From a bacterium (GTDB lineage: Bacteria; Armatimonadota; Zipacnadia; Zipacnadales; UBA11051): a stretch of 37,774 nt of DNA. The stretch covers positions 1 through 37,774 of the forward strand of contig JAJFUB010000010.1 in assembly GCA_021372615.1 (NCBI GenBank), written 5' to 3'. The first letter of the stretch is position 1. The number at the start of each line of letters is the position of its first letter. The notes beneath the pieces are model-generated. The model saw only the letters and a program-made list of their open reading frames with translations. It made no database searches and was not told where the DNA came from. Shown here piece by piece: positions 96 through 7,890 of this stretch. A program made the position numbers and the translations under genes.

Positions 96-2447
96 TCACC
101 CTCTATGGCGGTGGCGCTCAATGATCTCCAGTTGCAGCTCACGCGACAGGCTCGTGAAGCGCGCGGAGAAGCCGCCGACCCGCACGATCAGGTGATGGTA
201 CGCCCCCGGCGTGTCCAGCGCGCGCTTCAACTCCTCCACATCGGTCATGTTCCCCTGGAAGATGTGGCCGCCCTGGTCGGCGAAGACCTGCACGACCGAC
301 CGCAGCAACCCCTGGTTGATCCAGCTCGCATCCGTATCCCACATCGTCGAGGCCCCGCCGCTGACACGGTCGTGTGGTAGGGCCGTGCAGTCCTGCACCG
401 CCGTCCCGAGGCCCTTGCTCATCGCGCAGCTTTGCGGGGTGAGGCCATGGCCGACGGGCTGGCCGGATCTGCGCCCATCGGGCGACGCGCCCAGGCTCGC
501 GCCCATCTCCGGCGCCCACACAAAGGTGAAGATGATCGGCTTGACATAGCGCCCGTGGCGGTTGCGATAGGCATCGAAGATGTCGCAGATGTCCGTCAGC
601 AGGCGGGCCATCGTGGCCTGGGCGTCGGGATCGCCCGAACCGTACTTGGGGATCGCCAGCAGCCGTGCCCGCAGGTCCTCGTAGCCGACGAAATCCGCCC
701 GCAAGGCCGCGATGAGTGCGTCCGGGGTCACGAAGGCTTCGTCGAACACCGCGACCTTGACGGCGTGCAGGGCATCGGCCGCGTTCTGGACGCCCACGGG
801 CGTGCCGCCATAATCAGCATACCGTGCGCCGCCATCCTGCTGGCTGCGCCCGCGCTCCAGGCAGTCGGCGATCATCGAGGACTGCAGGAACGCCGGGCGG
901 CAGCGCGCCATCTCCTCGCTGTATACGTCCAGGCAGCGGAACTGAACAAACAGTGCCCGCCGCATCTCGGCCACGCAGGTGGCGTAGAACTCCTCGAAGC
1001 TCGCGCACTCGCGCAGCCCGCGCGGCACACTCAGCCGGTGCTGCTGCCCCGTGCGCAGGCACTCGCCGCCGGTGAGGACGAGTTCCACGGTCTTGGGCAC
1101 GTTGTAGGTGAACGAGAAGAGCAAGTCGGAGTTCATCCCGTGCGGGTTGATCTCCATGCACCCGCCGCACATGTACATGGCCGCGTCGGCGAAGGGCATC
1201 CGCCCCTCGTCCTTGCAGTGCGGCCTTCCAGACCCCTCGTAGTGCGGGCTCCCAGACCCCTCGTAGTGCGGGCTTCCAGCCCGCCCCGGCTGTGTCATGG
1301 CCCGGATGATCGGCTCGTCCACCAGTATCTGCGCGCGGTTCCCACCCTTGAGCATGTACTCCACGCAGCGGTCCCAGTACTCCGGCGGGTTCACGTTCGC
1401 CACGCGGGTGTAGACGGCCGGGTGGGTGAGGTTGAGTTGCTCGAAGGCGTCGAGCATCATGTAGGTCAGCGGCGTGACGGCATCGCCGCCGTCAGGTCCC
1501 ATGCCGCCGACGACGATGGTGTTGACATGGCCGTCGGACAGGTGGACCCGCTCGTCTATCTTGATGAACAGCTCGGCGACGAGTTCGGTCGCTTCCTGAT
1601 AGGAGATCGCCCCGGACTCCAGCCCCGCTTGCAGGTGCGGCCACAGAAAGTAGTCCAGGCGGCCGGGGCTATTGCCACCGTACGGGACCTCGTACATGAC
1701 GGCAAGCCACTGGAAGTAGTAGCTCTGGATGGCCTCGCGGAAGTGGCGCGCCGGGAGCGCCGGCACGCGCTCCATCACGGCGATGTTCTCTTCGATGAAC
1801 GTGCGTTCGGCATCGGTCGTGGCTGCCGCGAGCATCTCGCGCAGGGTCGCGACATGCCGGGCGTTCCACTCCAGCATGGCTTCGAGGAGGATGAGCACGC
1901 ACCGGTAGTACTCGCGCGCCCGGTCATCGGCTGCCCGGTCGAGCGCCTCCCGGTGCATGGCCATGAGGCCCTCGACGCCATGGTTCAGGATGAGATCGAA
2001 GTTCCACGCGATGTGCCCTGGCGCGGCCCCGCCGGAGATGATGTACGAGCCTTGTCCGGGGACGGGCTCGCGCTCGGGCCACTGGTTCGCCAGCTCGGCG
2101 AGCTCGGGGATCTCCGTTGCGATGCGCGCGGCGGCCGACGGGAAGGCGGAGAACTCCCCCCAGGAGCCGTCATAGAGCTGCGGGTCGGCGGCGCCATAGA
2201 ACTGCCCGTTGACGCGCTCGCCGGGGAAGAGACGCACGGGCTCGTTGACCATGGCATAGGCGAGCGAGCGGGCCTGCCGCTCGGCGAGGGGCAGGTGGAC
2301 ATAGAGCTCGAAGAAGGCGCGCTTCTGGTTCTCCCCCCGCAAGAGCGGCGCGCCGGCGGCGCCGCGTTCAGCAGCGGCCGCGGCGAGCGCGCGCAGGCGG
2401 TCGGTGAGGGTGAAGCGTTGCTTTGCGATGCGTTCGGCGATGGCCAT
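96..2447 (-). CDS. Glycyl radical enzyme (pyruvate formate-lyase-like), substrate unknown
   Basis: A 783-residue protein of the PFL/glycyl radical enzyme family, the usual length for the family. The active-site cysteine loop is GGCMEINPHG, with Cys430 in the GC-x-E context found in dehydratase and lyase members. The glycyl radical loop near the C-terminus is RVGGFSARF, with Gly759 as the likely radical residue. The enzyme should be cytoplasmic and oxygen-sensitive and should need a radical-SAM activase, which is absent from this window. The start at 2447 (MAIAERIAK) was chosen because upstream codons run into the tandem repeat array, and a GAGG lies just upstream. Residues about 388-414 are an in-frame repeat insertion (three 8-residue units related to SPHYEGSG) placed 16 residues before Cys430. 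Substrate cannot be assigned; PFL proper is unlikely, since PFL has a Cys-Cys pair. Confidence 0.9.
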   Translation of the reverse strand: MAIAERIAKQRFTLTDRLRALAAAAAERGAAGAPLLRGENQKRAFFELYVHLPLAERQARSLAYAMVNEPVRLFPGERVNGQFYGAADPQLYDGSWGEFSAFPSAAARIATEIPELAELANQWPEREPVPGQGSYIISGGAAPGHIAWNFDLILNHGVEGLMAMHREALDRAADDRAREYYRCVLILLEAMLEWNARHVATLREMLAAATTDAERTFIEENIAVMERVPALPARHFREAIQSYYFQWLAVMYEVPYGGNSPGRLDYFLWPHLQAGLESGAISYQEATELVAELFIKIDERVHLSDGHVNTIVVGGMGPDGGDAVTPLTYMMLDAFEQLNLTHPAVYTRVANVNPPEYWDRCVEYMLKGGNRAQILVDEPIIRAMTQPGRAGSPHYEGSGSPHYEGSGRPHCKDEGRMPFADAAMYMCGGCMEINPHGMNSDLLFSFTYNVPKTVELVLTGGECLRTGQQHRLSVPRGLRECASFEEFYATCVAEMRRALFVQFRCLDVYSEEMARCRPAFLQSSMIADCLERGRSQQDGGARYADYGGTPVGVQNAADALHAVKVAVFDEAFVTPDALIAALRADFVGYEDLRARLLAIPKYGSGDPDAQATMARLLTDICDIFDAYRNRHGRYVKPIIFTFVWAPEMGASLGASPDGRRSGQPVGHGLTPQSCAMSKGLGTAVQDCTALPHDRVSGGASTMWDTDASWINQGLLRSVVQVFADQGGHIFQGNMTDVEELKRALDTPGAYHHLIVRVGGFSARFTSLSRELQLEIIERHRHRG
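1205..1284. repeat. Family B in-frame repeat insertion inside the glycyl radical enzyme gene
   Basis: Three 24-base direct units (1205-1228 degenerate, 1229-1252, 1253-1276) end in a hairpin at 1268-1284 (GCGGGCT-TCC-AGCCCGC). The 24-base period keeps frame and encodes an 8-residue repeat (SPHYEGSG). On the coding strand the hairpin plus CACTAC tail also occurs at 23995-24016 inside another gene in a different reading frame, and in degenerate form at 21160-21181. Confidence 0.85.
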
Positions 2448-2501
2448 GGTTGCCTCACGATGTCCGGCGGCCCCGTTGGGGCGTGCACGGGTGGACCCGG
2501 G

Positions 2502-3060
2502 GTGGCCGCAGCCCGTGGGCTTCCGCCCACGGCTACGCACGTCGGCGCCTGCGGCGCGAACGGCCACGTCCTCGCCACTGGCCTCCAGGATAGGGCCGTG
2601 CCTCACGCGGCCCGAAGGGCCCGCCGCATGTAGCCACGAGCGCAAACTCGTGGACCTTCCGCCCACGGCTACGTACGTCGGCGCCTGCGGCGCGAAGGAC
2701 CACGTCCTCGCCACTGGCCTCCAGGATAGGGCCGTACCTCACACGGCCCGAAGGGCCCCGCCGTATGCAGCCACGGGCGTAAGCCCGTGGGCTCCCCACG
2801 GCTACGCACGTCGGCGCCTGCGGCGCGAAGGACCACGTCCTCGCCACTGGCCTCCAGGATAGGGCCGTACCTCACACGGCCCGAAGGGCCCGCCGTATGT
2901 AGCCACGGGCGTCAGCCCGTGGGCTTCCCCACGGCTACGTACGCCGGCGCCTGCGGCGCGAACGGCCACGTACTCGCCACTGGCCTGCAGGGCGAGGCCA
3001 TGCCTCACACGGCCCGAAGGGCCCGCCGCATGTAGCCACGGGCGTAAGCCCGTGGGGCCC
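2502..3060. repeat. Four-copy 133-136-bp tandem repeat array with alternative hairpins
   Basis: The anchor CGGCTAC(G/A)(C/T)ACG begins at 2530, 2666, 2799 and 2932, giving periods of 136, 133 and 133 bases, plus partial copies at both ends. Each unit holds GGCGCCTGCGGCGCGAA, a GGCCC-GAA-GGGCC hairpin and a hairpin such as 2771-2790 (CCACGGGC-GTAA-GCCCGTGG). The right arm of that hairpin can instead pair forward with CCCACGG, so two structures compete. Near 2632 the stem reads CCACGAG/CTCGTGG, a paired change that keeps base pairing. Open frames across the array are repeat-derived and not genes. The array fills most of the 2448-3138 gap between GH4 and the glycyl radical enzyme. Confidence 0.9.
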
Positions 3061-3092
3061 CGGCGTCCCTTCTCGCCATCTTCTCTCTGTAC

Positions 3093-3124
3093 GCCCCGAA
3101 GGGGCCGACGAGGCCCCCGGGGGC
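3093..3124 (-). terminator. Hairpin pair past the GH4 gene, possible terminator
   Basis: Two adjacent GC stems follow the GH4 stop on the minus strand: 3093-3105 (GCCCC-GAA-GGGGC) and the palindrome 3113-3124 (GCCCCCGGGGGC). No clear T-run follows, so this may be another repeat-family hairpin and not a true intrinsic terminator. Confidence 0.4.
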
Positions 3125-3138
3125 GATGAACTACGCCT

Positions 3139-4470
3139 CTACGGGAACTGCGGCAACCACTCCTTCGTGGCCGCGATCAGTTCCTCCACCATCGGCCGCG
3201 CGTCCGTCAGGTTCGACAGCAGCGGGTCCAGCGTCAGCACCGCCAGCGCCTTCTCGACGCTCCCCTCCAGCGCCGCCTCGACCGTCAGCTCCTCGCGCAA
3301 CACATGCGGGCGCAAGATCGCCTCGAGCGGCGGGCTGAGTGGGCTGGTGAGGCAGTGCACCCCCGTGCCGTCCAGCACCCCGCGCGTCTCCACGATCGCC
3401 CCCGCGGGCAGTTGCGGCACTTGCCCCGTGTTCGGGGCGTTCAGGTTGTCCTCGACCGTCATGCCCCCGCTCAGGGCGATCATCCAGCCCGCCATGTTGT
3501 CCATCGCCCGCTCCCCCACCAGCGGCGGTAGGGCCTCCTCACCAGTCAGCATCCGTTCCACCCGGGCGCGTCCCTCGGCGATGCCCCGCTGCCGCTCGGC
3601 CACCGAGGTCCGCACCAGGCCGTACTGCTCGATGCCATCGTGACGCTGGAACCACGGGAAGAACTCGGTCAGGTGCCGGTCGCTCATCGCCGGTAGGGCG
3701 CCGACCAGCGGCCAGAGCATCAGCCCGCACCGGAAACCGAAGATCGGGCCGAACACCGGGTCTCTCTCGGCCTGCGCTGGCGGCAACCTGAGCCACTCCT
3801 GCACACCCTTCTCGATGAGCAGGTCCTGCGCGGGCCGGCCGTCCACGGTCAGCTCGGTGAACCACGAGCAGTGGTCAATGCCGGTGTTGATGAAATGGAA
3901 GCGATCCAGGGGGCACTGGAAGAAGTCGGCCAGCATCCGCACACGGTTGCGCACGCCGTGGCAGACACCCAGCGCGCGAATGCCCGTCTCCTTGTTCACG
4001 ACCCGCGTCAGCGCGCACAGCGGGTTGGAGCAGTTGAGCATCCAGGCCCGCGGGCACAGGCGCTCCATGGCTCGCGCCATCTGCAGGTACACCGGCACGC
4101 CCCGCAGCGCCCGGTTCAGGCCACACGGTCCACCCGTGTCGCCGACGGTCATGGTGATGCCGTAGCGCTCGGGGATGGTCAGATCGGCGGCCATGGCCCG
4201 CAGGCCGCCGGTGGTGATGGTCACGACCACATAGTCGGCATCGGCAAAGGCAGCTTCCTGGTCCGTCGTCGCCGTGACCGTCGTCGCGAAGCCGCTGGCT
4301 TCCCTGAACTTCAGGGCGAGGCGGTGGGTCAGCTCGAGCGGGTCGGGGTTCAGGTCGAACATGACCAGCTCTGAGGTCCGCAGCGGCTCGGAACCGAGGA
4401 CATTGGCGAGCAGGTTGGGCGTCCAGGCAAAGCTCCCGGCGCCGACATGGACGATCTTGAGGTCCCTCAT
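3139..4470 (-). CDS. Glycoside hydrolase family 4 (NAD- and metal-dependent glycosidase)
   Basis: A 443-residue GH4 enzyme of normal family length. GH4 members cleave alpha- or beta-glycosides by an oxidation-elimination mechanism with NAD and a divalent metal, usually on intracellular phosphorylated or uronic sugars. The N-terminal Rossmann motif is VHVGAGSFAW (Gly10, Gly12); NCSNPL follows. The family metal ligands are visible as Cys170 in GVCHG and His200 in GIDHCSWF. The start ATG at 4468-4470 overlaps the TGA of the upstream URO-D-like gene (ATGA), which indicates translational coupling; an in-frame extension to 4788 would lie inside that gene and was dropped. Alpha-galacturonidase, alpha-glucuronidase and alpha-galactosidase are all possible; the sequence alone does not decide the sugar. 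Confidence 0.92.
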   Translation of the reverse strand: MRDLKIVHVGAGSFAWTPNLLANVLGSEPLRTSELVMFDLNPDPLELTHRLALKFREASGFATTVTATTDQEAAFADADYVVVTITTGGLRAMAADLTIPERYGITMTVGDTGGPCGLNRALRGVPVYLQMARAMERLCPRAWMLNCSNPLCALTRVVNKETGIRALGVCHGVRNRVRMLADFFQCPLDRFHFINTGIDHCSWFTELTVDGRPAQDLLIEKGVQEWLRLPPAQAERDPVFGPIFGFRCGLMLWPLVGALPAMSDRHLTEFFPWFQRHDGIEQYGLVRTSVAERQRGIAEGRARVERMLTGEEALPPLVGERAMDNMAGWMIALSGGMTVEDNLNAPNTGQVPQLPAGAIVETRGVLDGTGVHCLTSPLSPPLEAILRPHVLREELTVEAALEGSVEKALAVLTLDPLLSNLTDARPMVEELIAATKEWLPQFP

Positions 4471-5741
4471 AGCGACGCCCCGATCTCCTTCGCGGCCTCC
4501 GCCCACTCCCGCAGCCGCTCCGGCCGGCCGTCCACCGTCTCCAGCTCCTGCAGGACGATGTGCAGGGGCGTGCCTTTCGCGATGGTCAGCCCGCGCCGCA
4601 GGTGCTCCCGGATTGGGCCCATCGTCGGCGTGAATACCACGTCGGTCGCCTTCTGTCGCCACTCGATGCAATAGCGGTCGCCGACGGCCTCGACGAGCTT
4701 CTCCAGGTTCGTCCAGGCCGAGCAGACGAACTTGCGCAGGTTGGGGATGCTCAGCACGAGGGGGATCTTGTTGGTGAGGTCCTCGCAACAGCCGTAGTAC
4801 GTCAGGCCGAAGCGGGCCAGGATGGGCTCTTGGTAGTTGAGCAGGAACTCCTCATACTGGGCAGGGCCTACGCCCTGGAACTCCTGGCTCTCGCCCCGGC
4901 CCCAGAGGTCCTTGAGGCGGACACAGGCGACGGGTGCCGCGTCGTGTGCGGCGGGACCCGTCGCCGCGGTGGGGCCCGCCCCACACGACGCGGCACCCAC
5001 CGCCTCTACCGGCATCAGCCCGTCGCACGCCCACAGCCCACCGGTGTTCGGAGTCAGTACCCCCTGCTGCTCATACTGGTCCAGCAGCGCCAGGTTGCCG
5101 TCTCTCAGGGCCGCCATCAGCCGGTGGACCCACTCCGGGCGGTCCATCATGTCCACCAGCAGTTGCGTCACCCCGCGCAGTTGCGTGGCCCAGCCGTGCA
5201 ACCAGGCGCCGGGAGTGGGAATGGTGCAGGTGCGCTGCACCGGCAGGATGTCGCCGAGTAGCTCAGCGGTGCGTTCCAGGGCTTCCTGCGTGGCGCGTTC
5301 GTTGTGGACGTACCGGGGCGGGACGATCCGCTCGAGGTCCGCCTCGCTCTTGAGTGGTGGGTCATACGCCCAGGCGCCACGATACGACACGTCAGGGTGC
5401 GTGTAGCCGATGGGCAGCCCCCAGAAGTGCTCGCCCTGCAGCTCCATGACCGTGGCGACTTCCCAGTACGGGTTGATGACCGTATCGTCGCCGATGGTGA
5501 GCTTGTACAGCGACTGACGCATCGGCGCCTCGAGCTGGCGCAACCACGGGTCCCGGCAGACGTAGGCGCTGGCGGGGATCAGCTCGTGCCAGCAGCCGGC
5601 ATGGCAGATGACAGGGGAACGCTCGGGGAGACGCAGGGAGTGCACGTCGCGCCATAGCCGGCGGCGGAACGCCATCTCATCGCTGTGGGCCGCCTCGGCC
5701 AACTGGGCGGCGAGGGAGCGGACGACATCGCGGTCGGACAT
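4467..5741 (-). CDS. Uroporphyrinogen decarboxylase-like (URO-D/MtaA superfamily) protein
   Basis: A 424-residue protein resembling the divergent URO-D-fold proteins common in Armatimonadota, Lentisphaerae and Planctomycetes, which are thought to be methyltransferases or enzymes of unknown reaction and not heme enzymes. Recognisable parts are the PRYVHNERATQEALERT helix, YYGCCEDLTNKI (a Cys-Cys-Glu site in the position of the URO-D/MtaA metal or substrate loop) and the C-terminal TPTMGPIREHLRRGL segment. The start at 5741 (MSDRDVVRSL) has GAGGGTGA just upstream. It overlaps GH4 by 4 bases, so the two are probably made together, perhaps acting on the same glycoside. Residues about 248-271 (Ala/Gly/Pro-rich) are encoded by a palindromic insertion and are not expected in the fold. 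The exact reaction is unknown. Confidence 0.75.
   Translation of the reverse strand: MSDRDVVRSLAAQLAEAAHSDEMAFRRRLWRDVHSLRLPERSPVICHAGCWHELIPASAYVCRDPWLRQLEAPMRQSLYKLTIGDDTVINPYWEVATVMELQGEHFWGLPIGYTHPDVSYRGAWAYDPPLKSEADLERIVPPRYVHNERATQEALERTAELLGDILPVQRTCTIPTPGAWLHGWATQLRGVTQLLVDMMDRPEWVHRLMAALRDGNLALLDQYEQQGVLTPNTGGLWACDGLMPVEAVGAASCGAGPTAATGPAAHDAAPVACVRLKDLWGRGESQEFQGVGPAQYEEFLLNYQEPILARFGLTYYGCCEDLTNKIPLVLSIPNLRKFVCSAWTNLEKLVEAVGDRYCIEWRQKATDVVFTPTMGPIREHLRRGLTIAKGTPLHIVLQELETVDGRPERLREWAEAAKEIGASL
4932..4998. repeat. Family F palindromic insertion in the URO-D-like gene
   Basis: The 17-base arms 4932-4948 and 4982-4998 are perfect reverse complements. Between them lies a second nested GC-rich palindrome around 4949-4968. 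The whole is read in frame and adds an Ala/Gly/Pro-rich loop to the protein. I saw no second copy of this family in the window. Confidence 0.8.
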
Positions 5742-6777: not shown

Positions 6778-7563
6778 CTAGCTCTGCAGGATGAGCTGCA
6801 GGTGGGCGCCGGTGTCCAGGACCATCTGCTCCTGGAACTGGGTGTACTGCGCCAACTCGGCGGTCAGGTAGTCGTTGTAGCCGACGCCGCGCAGGGCGTT
6901 CATGATGCGCGGGAAGTCCACATTGCCGGTCAGCAGCGGCACGAAGTCGCGCTTCTGAATACTGAAGTCCTTGACATGGATCTTGCAGATGCGGTCACCG
7001 AGGATCTCGATCCACTGGTGCGGGTAGCCGTACATCAGGATGTTGCCCACATCGAAGTAGGCGCACACCAGCTCGTGCTCGAAGGCGTCCACATAGTCCC
7101 GCATCTCCAGCGGGCTGAGCAGGAACTTATTCCACACGTTCTCCATGCCCATGCGGACGCCGGTCTCCTCGGCGGTCGGGAGCAGCTCGCGGATGCTCTT
7201 CTGGGAGATCTCCCAGGCGGCGGCATAGGACACGTCCTCATTGACGACCGCCGGCACGACCAGGACCGTGTCCGCGCCGGCCCACTTGGCCACCCACAGC
7301 GCGTGCTTGATGCCCTCGACGGCCTGGACCCGCACCGCTTCATCGGTGCTCGACAGCGGGAACTGCCAGTGCGTGGAGGCCATCACACTGTGGACCTCGA
7401 TGCCGGCTGCGGTAGCGGCCGCCGCGAGTTGCTCGACCTCTGCCTGGGTCTCGTATGTGCTGGGGATCTCAACGCCGTCGAGGCCGGCCCGCTTGGCCAG
7501 AGCAAACCGTTCGGCCACAGACAGTTTGGTGGGCAGTGTGCCAAAGTAGATGCCCTTCTTCAC
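6778..7563 (-). CDS. Sugar phosphate isomerase/epimerase (xylose isomerase-like TIM barrel)
   Basis: A 261-residue AP-endonuclease-2 family TIM barrel, normal length for sugar isomerases/epimerases such as IolE/IolI, hydroxypyruvate isomerase or ketose 3-epimerase. The expected metal-site pattern is visible: GVEIPST, MENVWNKF (Glu), YFDVGN (Asp), IHVKDF (His-x-Lys-Asp) and a late TAELAQY Glu. The start is GTG at 7561-7563, since AGGAGG lies 7 bases upstream and the barrel's first strand (KKGIYFGTL) begins right there; the open frame further upstream runs into intergenic repeats. Likely role: interconversion of a keto sugar from polysaccharide breakdown. It is followed by a strong hairpin, so it is probably transcribed alone or as the last gene. 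Confidence 0.88.
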   Translation of the reverse strand: MKKGIYFGTLPTKLSVAERFALAKRAGLDGVEIPSTYETQAEVEQLAAAATAAGIEVHSVMASTHWQFPLSSTDEAVRVQAVEGIKHALWVAKWAGADTVLVVPAVVNEDVSYAAAWEISQKSIRELLPTAEETGVRMGMENVWNKFLLSPLEMRDYVDAFEHELVCAYFDVGNILMYGYPHQWIEILGDRICKIHVKDFSIQKRDFVPLLTGNVDFPRIMNALRGVGYNDYLTAELAQYTQFQEQMVLDTGAHLQLILQS

Positions 7564-7570
7564 CGGTGCG

Positions 7571-7576
7571 CCTCCT
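7571..7576 (-). promoter_or_regulatory. Shine-Dalgarno site fixing a GTG start
   Basis: AGGAGG on the minus strand, 7 bases from GTG at 7561-7563. It decides the start of the TIM-barrel isomerase against longer in-frame alternatives. Confidence 0.8.
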
Positions 7577-7747
7577 GTAGGGGAACGAGAACGTCTGCCT
7601 GCATCGCAGGTAGGGACAGGTTCGCCGGAGGCGCCAGGGCGACCTCCTGGCGTGGGGACTGGGGATTGGGGATTGGGGACTGAGATCCGGGATCCGGGAG
7701 CGGGGATGCTGGCGGACAGACGCACACCCTCCCCACCTCCGGTGTGG

Positions 7748-7890
7748 GAGCGGTCACCGACCGCGACCGGTCGAGCACACCCTCCCCCCGGGGCCTCCGC
7801 TGTACGAGCGGTCACCGACCGCGACCGGTCGAGCACACCCTCCCCTCGGGGCCTCCGCTGTACGAGCGGTCACCGACCGCGACCGGCAGC
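7748..7890. repeat. Three-copy 58-bp tandem array (family A core)
   Basis: GAGCGGTCACCGACCGCGAC begins at 7748, 7806 and 7864, exactly 58 bases apart, separated by GGTCGAGCACACCCTCC and GGGGCCTCCGCTGTAC. The core holds the inverted repeat CGGTC-ACC-GACCG and is the same as the arms at 1-58. The rest of the gene-free stretch 7564-7898 holds a short GGGGATT/GGGGACT direct repeat (about 7653-7681) and a doubled GATCCGG; I see no gene or RNA in it. Confidence 0.88.

Follow-up and report, generated by a model that had tools for sequence, protein, structure and literature searches.

A tandem array beside a glycyl radical enzyme gene is probably a cluster of mobile REP elements of the Acido-Lenti-1 family

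The window, that is the whole stretch of 37,774 nt of bacterial DNA that was analysed, contains two minus-strand genes coding for a glycoside hydrolase of family 4 (GH4) and a glycyl radical enzyme (GRE). A repetitive array lies in the gap of about 690 nt between them. In the original prediction the array was taken for a selected RNA or DNA structure in the leader of an oxygen-sensitive enzyme gene. The question raised by this locus is whether the array acts with the GRE gene or is a DNA element of another kind.

Architecture of the array

A single tandem array was delimited by TRF at positions 2510-3056 (period 133, 4.1 copies, 90% matches), and successive copies started at intervals of 136, 133 and 133 in a repeat search. 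Alignment of the four units, each 133-136 nt long, showed that they are about 90% alike. The predicted occurrence of four such units between GH4 and GRE was borne out by TRF and by the Pfam assignments of both genes (Table 1). The 9-mer AGCCCGTGG is found at both edges of the array (2510-2518 and 3047-3055). The longest reading frame of the PFL-like GRE spans 96-2714 on the minus strand, and the sequence suggests that the true start is probably the ATG at 2447. The closest named relative of the GRE belongs to an Armatimonadetes MAG (66%), and 19 matches of the protein in its own genome (G000) indicate several glycyl radical enzyme paralogues. TRF also reported a 24-nt repeat inside the GRE reading frame (1217-1279, 2.6 copies) and a 58-nt tandem repeat (7736-7886, 2.6 copies, 95% matches) on the start side of the minus-strand reading frame 6778-7836.

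Each unit of the array is a tail-to-tail pair of inverted REPs with their feet facing one another, and a covariance model detected eight REPs, four per strand. On its own strand, a REP is composed of a hairpin A, about 8-9 nt, a GTAG foot and a hairpin B. Hairpin A has about 5 bp and a three-base loop, for instance GAA or GCA, and hairpin B has 8 bp and a four-base GNNA loop. Palindromes similar to the one found downstream of the array (Table 1) also occur some tens of nucleotides past other REPs.

Table 1. Features of the array and its flanks in the window, and transposase genes elsewhere in the same genome (CM, covariance model).
Feature	Position	Strand	Evidence
Tandem array, four tail-to-tail REP pairs, bounded by AGCCCGTGG	2510..3056	.	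TRF, repeat search, alignment
REP 1-, complete; hairpin B CCGTGGGC-GGAA-GCCCACGG, GTAG foot, hairpin A loop GCA	2513..2572	-	CM R1 76.1 bits; RF01687 30.5 bits
REP 1+, unit with the paired change, CCACGAGC-GCAA-ACTCGTGG	2594..2653	+	CM R1 56.9 bits
REP 2-, shortened hairpin B, overlaps REP 1+	2648..2708	-	CM R1 48.8 bits
REP 2+, GCAG foot, GTAA loop	2730..2790	+	CM R1 64.7 bits; RF01687 25.1 bits, other strand
REP 3-, shortened hairpin B, 6-nt overlap with REP 2+	2785..2841	-	CM R1 53.0 bits
REP 3+, GTCA loop	2863..2922	+	CM R1 71.1 bits; RF01687 36.0 bits, E 2.6e-6, other strand
REP 4-, shortened hairpin B, 6-nt overlap with REP 3+	2917..2974	-	CM R1 58.6 bits
REP 4+, complete, right end of array, GTAA loop	2996..3055	+	CM R1 68.5 bits; RF01687 33.4 bits
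Isolated hairpin-A-like palindrome GCCCCGAAGGGGC, downstream of array	3078..3113	+	18.8 bits
GRE gene (PFL-like), flanking, outside the element	96..2447	-	Pfam PF02901 + PF01228; start predicted from sequence
GH4 gene, longest reading frame, flanking	3139..4788	-	Pfam PF02056 + PF11975
HuH/Y1 transposase gene, family I	C56:6056-6613		four REPs within 350 bp
HuH/Y1 transposase gene, second family	C40:18341-18838		seven REPs flanking

The stem CCACGGGC/GCCCGTGG was located at 2771-2790, 2903-2922 and 3036-3055. As had been claimed, the stem at 2634-2653 (CCACGAGC/ACTCGTGG) differs by one paired change from G-C to A-T; the claim left out that the innermost pair of this variant hairpin is broken (C-A). 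Four stem matches were found against 0 expected in shuffles. The two exclusive folds that had been proposed are present at three junctions (2630-2676, 2767-2809 and 2899-2940), though unequal in energy. At these internal junctions (n=3), the 3' arm of one hairpin B overlaps by 6 nt with the 5' arm of the inverted element that follows, and the two hairpins therefore cannot coexist. The competition thus results from the fusion of neighbouring units with a shared 6 nt of arm, and the left and right edges of the array display one of the two hairpins only. With RNA parameters, the REP hairpin reached -16.7 kcal/mol at junctions 2 and 3 versus -11.9 and -12.4 for the inverted hairpin, and -10.2 versus -6.6 kcal/mol at the changed junction. 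Since the alternative hairpin is weaker in the changed unit (-6.6 versus about -12 kcal/mol), the paired change does not preserve both folds.

Dispersed copies and covariation

The checks proposed with the original prediction included a search for other arrays with the same core and a covariation analysis over the genome copies. The 6.4-Mb genome was searched with a covariance model built on 32 copies, which gave 89 matches at E up to 0.1, about 45 of them strong and about 40 weaker; tens of copies are thus dispersed over the genome. Stems of the strongest (about 45) are mostly CC(A/G)(C/T)GGGC, and the weaker copies belong mostly to a second family with a CTAG foot and the stem GCGGGGGC. A pattern search with the stem but no loop specified retrieved 33 places in the genome, 32 of which display a four-base GNNA tetraloop. 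The combination of GTAG foot, 8-bp stem and 4-nt loop is present in 32 of the 35 family-I copies, and the loop has C at the third position in 11/35, unlike RNA GNRA loops. A family-wide DNA-specific structure of GNNA/GNA loops was also considered and was ruled out by AAC, ACC, ATC and CCG loops in other genomes; loop sequences vary among lineages and arguments drawn from them hold, therefore, within this lineage only. More than half of the REPs (47/86) lie less than 300 bp from another REP, and 22 are arranged tail to tail. By a rough gene call, 19 of 30 REPs are located outside genes, and the other 11 are ambiguous because the gene caller over-extends starts, that of the GRE gene included.

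Both-side changes were detected in 11 of the 13 pairs among 32 genome copies (58 cells), a score not reached in any of 500 shuffles, and covariation was also obtained with 76 distinct copies, the second family included. The stems are thus conserved as structure. One-sided G-U changes amounted to 1 cell versus 58 double changes, which would be expected for DNA and is unlike the usual trace of RNA selection. The choice between RNA and DNA had been left open in the original prediction; the structural conservation stands, and the evidence points to DNA. Folding energies computed by strand with DNA and RNA parameters did not separate the two hypotheses.

Template switching between the arms of a palindrome in DNA can produce paired changes in one event (PMC8794818), and covariation alone is for this reason no proof of RNA selection. 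The compensatory changes might even derive mainly from this process, with no selection on structure, as the rarity of one-sided intermediates here would suggest. It is doubtful that this is the main cause, since the conserved foot, the loop type and the two-hairpin layout across genomes would be left unexplained, as would the link to TnpA described below. Template switching can nevertheless operate alongside mobility of the elements.

Association with transposase genes

Seven Y1_Tnp matches were identified in the genome, and two of these genes have elements on both sides, which belong to family I at C56 and to family II at C40. Both are single-copy genes, and their products are 38% identical. 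Their HuH motifs read HLH/HVH and their Y---Q--HH motifs YLAGQEAHH/YIANQEAHH, and a conserved C-terminus HGVEYDERYxW was seen. Both proteins remained far below the cut-off of 80 of the RAYT model NF047646 (C56 22.8, C40 17.2 bits). Their agreement with the IS200 model is much closer, C56 reaching 56.5 bits on the NCBIfam IS200/IS605 model (cut-off 55). About 310 bp away from one REP there is a separate RAYT, C146 (89.1 bits). Quentin et al. (2018, PMC6006769) gave Y---Q--HH as the signature of TnpA-Y1 subclass 1.2, and by this motif alone the C56 and C40 enzymes would be placed in that subclass. From their flanking position, C56 and family I appear to be cognate. A homologue in another genome (G059:C159:62857-63315, L139) has HDIDTQRQHH in place of YxxxQxxHH; the tyrosine is gone from the expected catalytic position, and this protein is perhaps inactive or repurposed.

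Members of subclass 1.2 are generally devoid of typical IS200 end structures and occur mostly in Cyanobacteria and Bacteroidetes (PMC6006769). The enzymes described here resemble them in the Y---Q--HH motif, the low copy number and the proximity to IS200 transposases (PMC6006769); they differ in being flanked by REPs and in occurring in genomes labelled Lentisphaerae, Phycisphaerae and Armatimonadetes. It is very unlikely that the palindromes mark the termini of a mobile insertion sequence of the classical IS200/IS605 type. The score of C56 above the NCBIfam cut-off would agree with it; however, both genes are single copy, the palindromes occur in tens without a gene, and several REPs flank each gene in a REPtron-like manner.

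The GTAG REP/BIME/REPIN systems with their RAYT (REPtrons) are much closer. They share with the present elements the GTAG foot, the short perfect palindrome and the short loop, as well as the high copy number, the inverted dimers and clusters, and the flanking single-copy Y1 gene (PMC3733652, PMC8266576). As in GTAG REPs, the foot stands directly before a stem of 6-13 bp with a short loop, and the elements are of high copy number, extragenic and often arranged in inverted dimers or clusters. The system described here is distinguished by two hairpins per element and by flanking enzymes which score far below the RAYT model and carry Y---Q--HH.

Among 61 related genomes, six are rich in the element (G000, G009, G014, G016, G020 and G023), and these are exactly the ones with a close TnpA homologue (E < 1e-50). 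Within the order (41 genomes), 6/6 genomes with a close TnpA are REP-rich versus 0/35 of the others (Fisher 2e-7, a value which overstates the strength because related genomes are not independent). REPs adjoin TnpA in all six, G009, G014, G016, G020 and G023 as well as G000, with 15 in a row in G009. Repeated perfect palindromes were found at 15/30 and 12/27 loci of such enzymes, some of which overlap, versus 1/41 control stretches, a 42nd control having been dropped as it was the array itself.

A structured leader RNA, co-transcribed with the GRE gene and regulating it by two exclusive folds, would be in line with the position of the array 5' of the gene on its coding side, with the conserved stems and with the exclusive folds possible at three junctions. 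Such a leader is nevertheless extremely unlikely. Copies of this element occur at many other genes, and GRE orthologues in G001, G009, G014, G017 and G024 have no element upstream, G009 and G014 carrying 39-60 copies elsewhere. The element tracks TnpA, REPs are equally many on both strands, hardly any G-U pairs occur and the changed unit has a weaker alternative fold. Furthermore, a scan of 2300-3300 gave no promoter-like or terminator-like sites. Considering the dispersed copies, the five orthologues devoid of the element, the TnpA link and the result of the scan, the leader proposed for an oxygen-sensitive enzyme gene is unsupported. REPs located in operons of E. coli can affect their transcript, and the array may likewise affect a transcript containing it.

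Relation to Acido-Lenti-1 and proposed origin of the array

No match was obtained with a default Rfam search. A permissive search aligned the array elements with RF01687 (Acido-Lenti-1) on the complementary strand, the best copy (36.0 bits, E 2.6e-6) remaining slightly below the gathering cut-off of 37, which is passed by other copies of the genome (C169:64250, 44.7 bits; C56:29048, 37.5 bits). RF01687 is similar in having two hairpins, in their spacing and in its TAG foot, which reads GGCUA on the Rfam strand; it differs in being filed as sRNA and in the opposite strand. It was put forward by comparative genomics and rated 'probably RNA' (Weinberg et al., 2010, PMC2864571), and a possible role in the regulation of proteases in Tannerella is suggested in a 2026 paper (PMC13298647). 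The passages of these two papers that deal with it do not tie it to a transposase.

Between 22 and 44 copies of RF01687 were found in genomes reached via contigs labelled Lentisphaerae/Victivallales, Phycisphaerae and Armatimonadetes, versus none in 14 control genomes. At least 11 of 30 TnpA genes, including genes from genomes labelled Lentisphaerae, Phycisphaerae and Armatimonadetes, have RF01687 within 500 bp (0.12 expected), mostly at a distance of 22-67 bp. On a plasmid of Persicobacter (Bacteroidota), RF01687 likewise stands beside a TnpA. Like REPINs, the copies form dimers with constant spacing (114, 114, 114, 114 and 116 nt in G068, 100-104 nt in G046) and related spacer sequences, and the stems are specific to each genome. 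G046 carries 22-23 copies, six pairs of which are head-to-head dimers spaced by 100-104 nt (L274-L279), while its assembly, which is 96% complete, contains no Y1 gene; its copies are possibly an orphaned population. In G065, a strong TnpA was accompanied by no RF01687 match.

The view that RF01687 is a genuine trans-acting sRNA with additional dispersal through mobile DNA, and the array a cluster of sRNA genes, would be compatible with the rating given by Weinberg et al. (2010, PMC2864571) and with the filing of RF01687 as sRNA. This is unlikely: REPs covary too, and covariation alone does not make RF01687 an RNA; moreover, its copies adjoin transposase genes far above chance, form inverted dimers of fixed spacing and have genome-specific stems. 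The sRNA looks mislabelled, because the same element appears as mobile DNA beside transposase genes.

Taken at the sequence level, the anatomy, copy number, covariation, inverted pairing, enzyme co-occurrence and elements flanking the enzyme gene suggest, with a probability of about 85%, that the array is a BIME-like REP cluster served by a TnpA of subclass 1.2 type and that Acido-Lenti-1 is the same mobile DNA family. The array itself would thus be ordinary in kind. It is also probable that Acido-Lenti-1 is no RNA family and that TnpA-Y1 subclass 1.2 uses it as DNA substrate. The two would form a two-hairpin REP system which extends over several phyla and in which an IS200-type enzyme, separate from the RAYT lineage, would have come to mobilise REPs. 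Through the array, such a system on an IS200-like enzyme would come to light, and with it a likely reassignment of Acido-Lenti-1 from sRNA to mobile DNA. If true, a catalogued bacterial "sRNA" used for genome annotation is mobile DNA, a transposase subclass without known substrate obtains one, and two lineages of REP enzymes can be compared, making the origin of REPs from IS200-like elements directly testable.

Experiments on RAYT have demonstrated that the folded single-stranded REP, GTAG foot included, is recognised in a strand-specific manner, and that one RAYT group also recognises the first loop base G (PMC8266576). By analogy with TnpA-REP, the TnpA would recognise the GTAG strand when it is single-stranded and folded, and would cut and join it, thereby spreading the element. 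In the simplest history, one tail-to-tail REP pair would have landed between GH4 and GRE, and tandem duplication between the terminal 9-mers would have given four units, fusing neighbouring REPs head to head and creating the exclusive folds. Another tandem array, differently organised, was observed beside the C40 Y1 gene (G000:C40:18997-19333, L124), where family-II REPs follow one another head to tail every 93 nt.
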